Assembly (NCBI RefSeq): GCF_963675165.1
Contig: NC_087384.1
Span: 1 to 64,000 of the forward strand
Length of the DNA: 64,000 nt
Source: Halichondria panicea
Lineage: Eukaryota > Porifera > Demospongiae > Suberitida > Halichondriidae
Reading direction: 5' to 3'
Below, piece after piece: positions 34,430 to 37,400 of this stretch. The position numbers and the translations under genes are program-made. The number at the start of each line of letters is the position of its first letter. The first letter of the stretch is position 1. The notes beneath the pieces were generated by a model. That model was not told where the DNA came from. It ran no database searches and worked only from the letters and a program-made list of their open reading frames with translations.

Positions 34430-37400
34430 ATGAATGCTGTAGTTGCACTGTGCCACTTCTGTGAGGTCCACGGCCCTTGTATACTGTTCTGTACTCAGGT
34501 ACACTGTGTGTGTGTGTGTGTGTGTGTGTGTGTGTGTGTGTGTGTGTGTGTGTGTGTGTGTGTGTGTGTGTGTGTGTGTGTGTGTGTGTGTGTGTGTGTG
34601 TGTGTGTGTGTGTGTGTGTGTGTGTGTGTGTGTGTGTGTGTGTGTGTGTGTGTGTGTGTGTGTGTGTGTGTGTGTGTGTGTGTGTGTGTGTGTGTGTGTG
34701 TGTGTGTGTGTGTGTGTGTGTGTGTGTGTGTGTGTGTGTGTGTGTGTGTGTGTGTGTGTGTGTGTGTGTGTGTGTGTGTGTGTGTGTGTGTGTGTGTGTG
34801 TGTGTGTGTGTGTGTGTGTGTGTGTGTGTGTGTGTGTGTGTGTGTGTGTGTGTGTGTGTGTGTGTGTGTGTGTGTGTGTGTGTGTGTGTGTGTGTGTGTG
34901 TGTGTGTGTGTGTGTGTGTGTGTGTGTGTGTGTGTGTGTGTGTGTGTGTGTGTGTGTGTGTGTGTGTGTGTGTGTGTGTGTGTGTGTGTGTGTGTGTGTG
35001 TGTGTGTGTGTGTGTGTGTGTGTGTGTGTGTGTGTGTGTGTGTGTGTGTGTGTGTGTGTGTGTGTGTGTGTGTGTGTGTGTGTGTGTGTGTGTGTGTGTG
35101 TGTGTGTGTGTGTGTGTGTGTGTGTGTGTGTGTGTGTGTGTGTGTGTGTGTGTGTGTGTGTGTGTGTGTGTGTGTGTGTGTGTGTGTGTGTGTGTGTGTG
35201 TGTGTGTGTGTGTGTGTGTGTGTGTGTGTGTGTGTGTGTGTGTGTGTGTGTGTGTGTGTGTGTGTGTGTGTGTGTGTGTGTGTGTGTGTGTGTGTGTGTG
35301 TGTGTGTGTGTGTGTGTGTGTGTGGTGTGTGTGTGTGTGTGTGGTGTGTGTGTGTGTGTGTGTGTGTGGTGTGTGTGTGTGTGTGTGTGTGTGGTGTGTG
35401 TGTGTGTGTGTGCGCGCGCGCTAACTCTTCATTGTTTGCTTCAGGCATTTCACAGTGCTCATGATGCCCAGTTGATGATGGATGCATTGCCTCCTGACAA
35501 GAGGCTACCTCACAATGATGTAGATACTCTCCCGTCAAGACCTCCTACTGATCAGTGTGAGGTAAGCTAACAACACGCACACCACACAAACACACCACAC
35601 ACACACACATGTACACATGCAGGGCTGCCGCTCTGTAACCAGTGATCATCCTGGCTTCATCTCTTATGATGACAAGGCCATCATCACTTACATCAGTGGA
35701 CAATATCCAGAGCAGCCTCAGTTATACAGTGTGGTGCGTCAAGCGTGTGTGCGTAGTCTCAACTGTGAGGTGTGTCCTGGAAGAGAGGGTCCTATAGCAT
35801 TTGGAGAGGATGGAGGATCTCATGTCCTCTCACACACCTTCAACCTCAAGGATGCCCAAGCTAGGGGATTCAGACGATTGTAGGTCTCATCCCCCCCCCC
35901 CACTGACTCCCTCTCATGTCTTATCCACAGATACAGCTTTATTGTAGTGATGATGGATCGTGTGTTCCTCATCAATTCATGGCCATTCCTAGTCAAGCAT
36001 TTCAGAGCTCTTATTGATGACATGCAAGCCAAGGCTGACGGTGTGTTTGCTAGTGAGTCAGGCGATATCAAAGGATCTCGATCACTGCGCTCCAGTCTCT
36101 CCAGTCTCTCTGGTCCTGGTAAGCAACTACAATATTAGTAGCTCTGTCATTGTATATGGTGTAGTTAGATCCAGTGATTTATTTCGGACCCTTTTTAGGG
36201 GAGTAAGCGTGGGCGTTTAATCAATGGTTTGGGGACTACTCTTTCGGCTGCCATAACTTGAATTCTGTGGATCCAATGTCAAAATCGGATTTTCTGAAAG
36301 CTTAGATCAAATGGTGTCATCAAAAATCATATTTGAGAGATAAAGTATTTGCCAATTTGGCGATACCATGGATAATAGCCCATGGTCCGAGGCCGAAAAA
36401 TGACAAATTAGGGTCCTGAAAAAATTTTGAATTGCAACGCATCATTTGAAAGGTCTCTTTCTAAGCTTTCAGAAAATCCTGAAATGTTTGACATTGGATC
36501 AATGATACTCAAGTTAAGGCTGTTGAAAGATGTTCAACTACACTCCGTTCAATTCAATAGTTCGGCGATTCTTTCGGCTGCCATAACTTGAATTCTGTAG
36601 ATCCAATGTCAAAAATTTTCGGATTTTCTGAAAGCTTAGAAAAAAATAGGTCAAATGGTGTCATCAAAAATCATAATTTATTTGAGAAATAAAGTATTTG
36701 CCAATTTGGCGATACCATGAATAATAGCCCATGGTCCGAGGCCGAAAAATGACAAATTAGGGTCCTGAAAAAATTTTGAATTGCAACACATCATTTGAAA
36801 GGTCTCTTTCTAAGCTTTCAGAAAATCGTGAAATTTTTGACATTGGATCAATGATACTCAAGTTAAGGCTGTTGAAAGATGTTCAACTACACTCCGTTCA
36901 ATTCAATAGTTCGGCGATTCTTTCGGCTGCCATAACTTGAATTCTGTAGATCCAATGTCAAAAATTTTCGGATTTTCTGAAAGCTTAGAAAAAATAGTTC
37001 AAATGGTGTCATCAAAAATCATATTTGAGATATAAAAAGTATTTGCCAATTTGGCGATACCATGGTCCAAGGCCAAAAAATGACAAATTAGGGCCCCGAA
37101 ACAATTTTGGATTGCAACACATCATTTGAAAGGTCTCTTTCTAAGCTTTCAGAAAAGCAAAAAAATTTTAACTTTGTGTACTGAAGTTATGGCTGTTGAA
37201 AAATTAGAATAAAGCCTGCGTTCGTAGCTAAGTTTGAGAGGCCATAACTTGCGTTGCGAATGTTGCATTTAGTGATAGTGCTACAACATGGTGTATCTAG
37301 TGCATCACACACACTCACCAATAACCGCCCACTCCACACACACACTTGTGTAGATCACCTGAGGCGTATCAGAACAGCACACACTGGACGCTCCCTCGTG

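Follow-up and report, generated by a model that had tools for sequence, protein, structure and literature searches.

Tandem palindromic units in an FLCN intron

The DNA analysed here (the window) is a stretch of 64,000 nucleotides at the start of contig 8 of the Halichondria panicea assembly, which comprises 131 Mb in 39 contigs. It opens with telomere-type repeats: positions 1–1983 consist of approximately 950 bp of CTAACC repeats (1–949), directly followed by a 31-bp unit repeated approximately 33 times with 100% matches. Two forward-strand exons at 35932–36118 and 37354–37511 matched the Pfam Folliculin profile (E = 6.9e-9 for 35932–36117 and E = 1.6e-7 for 37356–37511, respectively), covering profile positions 67–113 and 133–165. 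Between them lie the repeats referred to below as array A, and the location in an FLCN intron proposed in an earlier note on this DNA is thus confirmed by both flanking exons. A (TG)n run of approximately 456 copies occupies 34505–35412, some 500 bp upstream of these FLCN exons, and a tRNA gene at 41246–41318 on the minus strand was the sole Rfam match of the window at the gathering threshold.

Array A, on the forward strand, begins with a 5′ linker remnant (CGTTTAATCAATGGTTTGGGGAC..., 36214–36239) that matches the linker between units. It continues with the palindrome of unit 1 (36240–36530; 92.8% identical to unit 2 over 36240–36569), a 39-bp linker (36531–36569), the palindrome of unit 2 (36570–36879), which served as the reference copy, a second 39-bp linker (36880–36918), and unit 3 (36919–37204), which is 85% identical to unit 2 and truncated at its 3′ end. 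Tandem Repeats Finder, run on the window, returned periods of 349 for array A (2.7 copies, 36240–37156) and 340 for array B, that is, a head-to-tail arrangement in both. The three near-identical units of approximately 345 bp described earlier therefore correspond to 349-bp tandem units in approximately 2.8 copies, the third being cut off at 37204.

Array B (58714–60255, forward strand, about 4.5 units) lies 3′ of an exon (58302–58646) with an MTPAP-like_central domain (poly(A) polymerase palm; Pfam, E = 5.3e-15). A Pfam search with the downstream exon (60467–60697) gave no match; array B is predicted to be intronic, its putative host being a poly(A)-polymerase-like gene. Two further traces of the unit lie in the window: a degenerate single copy on the minus strand (51027–51306; 76% identity, positions 8–340 of the unit query) and a unit fragment on the forward strand (48857–48932; 80.5% over 77 nt).

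Each 349-bp unit consists of an imperfect palindrome of approximately 310 bp and the 39-bp linker. In unit 2, the 310-nt palindrome has outer arms of 92 nt (36570–36661 and 36788–36879) that are 78% complementary, with 126 nt between them. Aligned with gaps to its reverse complement, the whole 310 nt showed a 69% match, which bears out the suspicion that the rest of the unit is self-complementary. The inverted arms originally pointed out (36440–36530 and 36570–36660; 91 nt, 39 nt apart) were also 78% complementary, above the approximately 60% taken as the lower limit for such pairing; the pairing is real, although its two arms belong to units 1 and 2, on either side of their linker, and every unit also contains its own pair. 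Because the units are in tandem, an arm can pair either with the partner in its own unit, across 126 nt, or with that of the neighbouring unit, across the 39-nt linker. The idea that the unit is a head-to-head pair of an older repeat of approximately 170 bp fits this layout, but the half units encountered were truncated copies. The linker has the approximate form TGTTCAACTACA, a C-tract, and then GTTTATTCAATGGTTTGGGGAT; long C-tracts occur at array edges and short ones in the interior. The 3′ end of an array often reads ...TTCAACTACAACCCCCC, a string found at 84 places in the genome at ≤1 mismatch.

Genomic distribution and subfamilies

A 20-mer from the arm had 1003 matches in the genome at ≤2 mismatches, compared with none for the reversed control, and a 23-mer from the 3′ side of the unit had 195 exact matches (control, 0); the full-genome search thus establishes the repeat family proposed from the window. 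From 49 genome stretches and the window, 62 clusters of ≥100 bp were placed and 90 near-complete units were aligned. Arrays in the stretches examined were short, ranging from one to about eight units.

The family is largely confined to the outer approximately 1 Mb of chromosome-scale contigs, and its subfamilies are concentrated on particular ends. Among 67 clusters drawn from the first 100 of the 195 23-mer positions, counting only contigs whose length was known, 55 were located ≤500 kb from a contig end, where 11.6% of bases lie. For three subfamily queries (best 40 candidates each, with the lengths of contigs 7, 10, and 15 interpolated), 37 of 39, 34 of 40, and 38 of 40 places were within 1 Mb of a contig end, against 26% expected. 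In the same searches, two control repeats found next to arrays had 9 of 40 and 15 of 40 places in this range, and the second of them also leans toward contig ends (P 0.07). The best places of the first subfamily included the left ends of contigs 5, 17, and 8 (11, 8, and 7 places, respectively), and those of the third the left end of contig 7 (10 of 40). Of the 40 best places of the second, 24 fell within 1.26 Mb of the start of contig 11, a stretch of approximately 1% of the genome. This confinement to chromosome ends is the outstanding property of the family, and it is invisible from the window alone.

Several loci showed local peculiarities. On contig 11, approximately 2 kb around an array is repeated with 96–97% identity at several places between 1.12 and 1.26 Mb (L037, L052, and L053), and an MCM domain was identified in a flank of L037. 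On contig 9 (239–357 kb and 692–843 kb; L055–L057), a multicopy gene segment carries a half palindrome with the same truncation point at ≥15 positions, which is an old insertion multiplied along with its host segment. A second-subfamily array on contig 17 (112.0–114.4 kb) mixes repeated half units (query positions 1–150) with full units, a pattern that might result from repeated loss of the second palindrome half or from amplification of a half-unit variant. On contig 8, at approximately 381 kb (L014, 2278–2884), an insert of approximately 600 bp splits an array, and the ends of the insert are inverted copies of CAAGGGCGTATACAGAGAAGAGGGCATGCAACTC.

In other sequence collections, an 18-mer of the unit matched two viral contigs over 19 nt only, and these were rejected as relatives of the unit; two further unit patterns had no match there. 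The unit was not described in the literature searched, among the matches listed, and the sponge's own genome paper may describe it.

Arrays within introns

For 17 arrays, an open reading frame on each side was searched against Pfam and PDB; single reading frames were used for exon finding because a self-trained codon model was too weak. The same gene was found on both sides of nine of the 17, which are thus intronic, and the hosts were FLCN, CHD1L, an N-SET/SET protein, a USP8-like protein, Paf67/eIF3L, TBCD, VPS35L, CAAP1, and a TOCA-family HR1/SH3 protein. The rhodanese side of the USP8-like host was weak (E 0.043), and one side each of the Paf67/eIF3L and CAAP1 hosts scored below the curated cut-off. 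In the remaining eight (L010, L011, L020, L021, L028, L037, L044, and array B of the window), Pfam and PDB identified one flank or neither. An ANAPC1-like identity considered for the reading frames of L028 was dropped, as the PDB search returned no match. Five further loci (L009, L018, L024, L029, and L042) were searched on one side and have no bearing on the intron question. Since the loci were partly picked for nearby reading frames, these counts demonstrate that arrays occur in introns and not that introns are preferred. At one locus on contig 4 (L050, approximately 1320–1370), the terminal C-tract of the repeat abuts TTGCAG and a coding exon; the polypyrimidine tract of this 3′ splice site thus appears to come from the repeat.

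Predicted folding and tests for selection on pairing

As RNA, unit 2 folded at −117.7 kcal/mol, compared with −60.4 (sd 5.1) for 100 dinucleotide shuffles, none of which was as good (z −11), and 36217–37216 folded at −343, compared with −218 (20 shuffles). The strong double-stranded stem suggested in the earlier note is accordingly predicted by folding. Such intronic hairpins could have been kept by selection as sources of double-stranded RNA, being candidate hairpin siRNA loci or ADAR substrates. Besides the very stable predicted fold, this explanation gains from the finding that in 35 of 40 cases real units had a better fold than a consensus into which the same changes had been introduced at random positions (mean −12 kcal/mol), from a slight excess of single changes that keep pairing (263 of 716, with 234 expected), and from the orientation of the nine intronic arrays, seven of which are in sense and two (eIF3L and TBCD) in antisense. 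The 7-to-2 orientation, however, is not significant (two-sided binomial, approximately 0.18), and the arms are only 78% complementary. Compensatory double changes numbered 12, against 17.4 in shuffles (76 arm pairs, 90 units), and paired sites were as diverged as the unpaired centre (6.0% in both), with unpaired sites within arms at 11.6%. No Rfam family matched the unit at the gathering threshold. Below it, several plant and animal miRNA precursor models were matched, the best at 41 bits against a gathering score of 195; these matches reflect the long hairpin and are no evidence of a miRNA. Both the better folds and the single-change excess may stem from mutation being uneven along the unit. 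We consider selected RNA structure improbable, and the hairpin is read as inherited from a founding inverted duplication.

Array ends, flanking sequences, and target sites

A preferred place in the linker region accounted for 31 of 62 array starts and 29 of 62 ends, with the remainder scattered over the unit; nine of these loci had been selected by their 3′ end, and some of the 62 clusters are segmental duplicates. Truncation affected the 5′ as well as the 3′ end among the arrays, and some copies have no 5′ part (L055–L057). No convincing target-site duplication was found in 26 arrays, where the longest shared strings were 4–9 nt at scattered offsets, although a duplication could be hidden in old or multi-unit arrays. 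In L015, AAATAGG occurs at both ends, but the string belongs to the unit and was rejected as a duplication. Likewise, a private 113-bp 5′ head common to L020 and L027 on contig 17, whose other ends differ, was rejected as a defined 5′ terminus, as it occurs in those two places only; either locus could be the copy.

These ends bear on whether the unit is a non-autonomous foldback transposon, that is, a MITE whose inverted repeats are very long and whose inserted copies were then amplified in tandem. Tandem MITEs and MITE-derived satellites do amplify in this way, and the long inverted repeats, the hairpin, the dispersal across contigs, and single-unit copies with preferred ends (L034 and L042) would all be expected. 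Yet the conserved sequence runs 20–40 bp past the inverted repeat on each side, array ends often fall inside the unit, no target-site duplication was found in the 26 arrays, and the family keeps to chromosome ends, unlike the two other repeats. On this evidence, a foldback origin is unlikely, though it retains some weight.

A second possibility is that arrays are carried in a Helentron-type (HINE) or similar larger element and moved by flanking modules. Short satellite-like arrays in oysters are carried in this way, inside Helentron elements with conserved flanks (PMC7492417); the sponge arrays have no such flanks. An all-against-all comparison of loci with the unit filtered out revealed no family-wide outer flank, and the search for a carrier element with shared flanks yielded only segmental duplicates, minisatellites, two unrelated dispersed repeats, and one block. 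That block, the sole exception, is a 258-bp stretch common to L039 and L045 that includes non-unit sequence, and some older copies may therefore belong to a composite element. Carriage by larger elements is thus largely contradicted and, for the family, very improbable.

A retrotransposed or circular-RNA element resembling a retrozyme, with the C-tract as its tail, would account for tandem units of approximately 345 bp, for the frequent 3′ terminus given above, and for the copies that have lost their 5′ part. Against it stand truncation at both ends, the lack of target-site duplications, and the absence of ribozyme families from the Rfam scans, both at the gathering threshold and at E ≤ 10, and we regard it as the least credible of these explanations. 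Overall, the intron-resident element first envisaged holds as a repeat family with inverted arms, but one that does not appear to have constant ends and for which no convincing target-site duplications or common outer flanks were found.

Probable mode of spread

Copies are partly homogenised inside arrays: the nearest neighbour of 42 of 75 units was in the same array, with 1.9 expected. Units thus resemble their array neighbours beyond chance, which points to tandem growth or conversion in place. Near-identical blocks are also present on different chromosomes, as in L015 on contig 9, where a 697-bp block is 95–96% like the window arrays and the homology stops at the array's own ends. Twelve arrays have both ends inside the unit. 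Their start and end phases were ≤21 nt apart in six (1.5 expected, P 0.002) and ≤5 nt apart in three (0.4 expected, P 0.006), where both limits were chosen after the data had been seen and two of the twelve arrays are degenerate at the head or interrupted by an insertion; the other six were 56–145 nt off a whole number of units. The permuted whole-number arrays hint at reinsertion of small circles, with which their phases would fit.

Taken together, we consider it rather probable that this is a dispersed satellite-like family whose short blocks spread from one chromosome-end region to another through recombination or circular DNA. A founding inverted duplication would have made the palindrome, and units would then have multiplied in place via unequal exchange or replication slippage. 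Ectopic recombination, or small DNA circles that reinserted, would have carried copies of short blocks to further sites, for the most part at the original chromosome end or a different one, presumably with no transposase acting on fixed ends. Introns would merely be where blocks are tolerated in a gene-dense genome, and the hairpin in intronic transcripts would be a legacy of the founder that, on present evidence, does not appear to be selected. Several observations sit less easily with the satellite interpretation: approximately half of the arrays have preferred linker ends, as a mobile element would have, and there are also the L039/L045 block, the leaning of the second control repeat toward contig ends, and the six permuted arrays off a whole number of units.

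A more specific version can be put forward tentatively, and we hold it to be possible but doubtful. The family would spread as whole-number multiples of a circular intermediate of approximately 345 bp that reinserts preferentially in the same chromosome-end neighbourhood, each end breeding its own subfamily and the palindrome promoting excision or breakage.

Relation to known repeats and implications

The nearest kind of sequence is dispersed satellite-like DNA, with head-to-tail units of approximately 100–500 bp, many short arrays, and homogenisation within arrays. In Drosophila, the 1.688 (359-bp) family forms short tandem arrays of approximately 350-bp units near genes, with chromosome-biased subfamilies and circular DNA implicated in its spread; its bias is toward the X chromosome, whereas that of the sponge family is toward chromosome ends, and to our knowledge its unit is not a palindrome. 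Drosophila hairpin RNA loci, a possible source of siRNA, resemble the sponge arrays in having tandem hairpins within a transcript, but the sponge units show no sign of selection on pairing.

TCAST of Tribolium castaneum is dispersed through euchromatin and introns, both as short satellite-like arrays and as single copies, and extrachromosomal circles have been proposed for its spread; TCAST4, TCAST8, and the TCAST transposon-like element have long inverted halves with a short unrelated spacer (41 bp, 31 bp), and hairpin formation has been attributed to them (PMC3411249, PMC5844308). The likeness lies in dispersed, short satellite-like arrays, their presence in introns, and the long inverted halves. 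The inverted multimers of TCAST are dimers, the tandem families are in direct orientation, and some elements have ACT target-site duplications (PMC3411249, PMC5844308), whereas in the sponge the palindromic monomers are themselves in tandem, no duplication was seen, and the copies keep to chromosome ends. Bivalve satellites and MITE-linked repeats also form short arrays with abrupt junctions (PMC5139131, PMC7492417), which in one satellite, phBglII400, map to palindromes (PMC5139131); short arrays and abrupt junctions are likewise found in the sponge, but the bivalve palindromes are 10–12 bp, compared with approximately 310 bp here. The sponge family is set apart by three features in combination: its full-length palindromic monomers are repeated in tandem, it keeps to chromosome ends, and its subfamilies are specific to particular ends.

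How short satellite blocks enter euchromatin and introns is not settled in general. This family offers hundreds of copies that can be dated, a sharp structure of subfamilies by chromosome end, and control repeats of the same genome that do not share the pattern, so that transposition can in practice be tested against recombination or circle reinsertion limited to a neighbourhood. Strong inverted repeats in introns of the conserved genes FLCN, CHD1L, TBCD, and VPS35L matter for splicing and for the control of double-stranded RNA in this sponge. If the circular intermediate proposed above were true, the family would represent a satellite that spreads by itself, with its range determined by the nuclear position of chromosome ends and not by an encoded enzyme.
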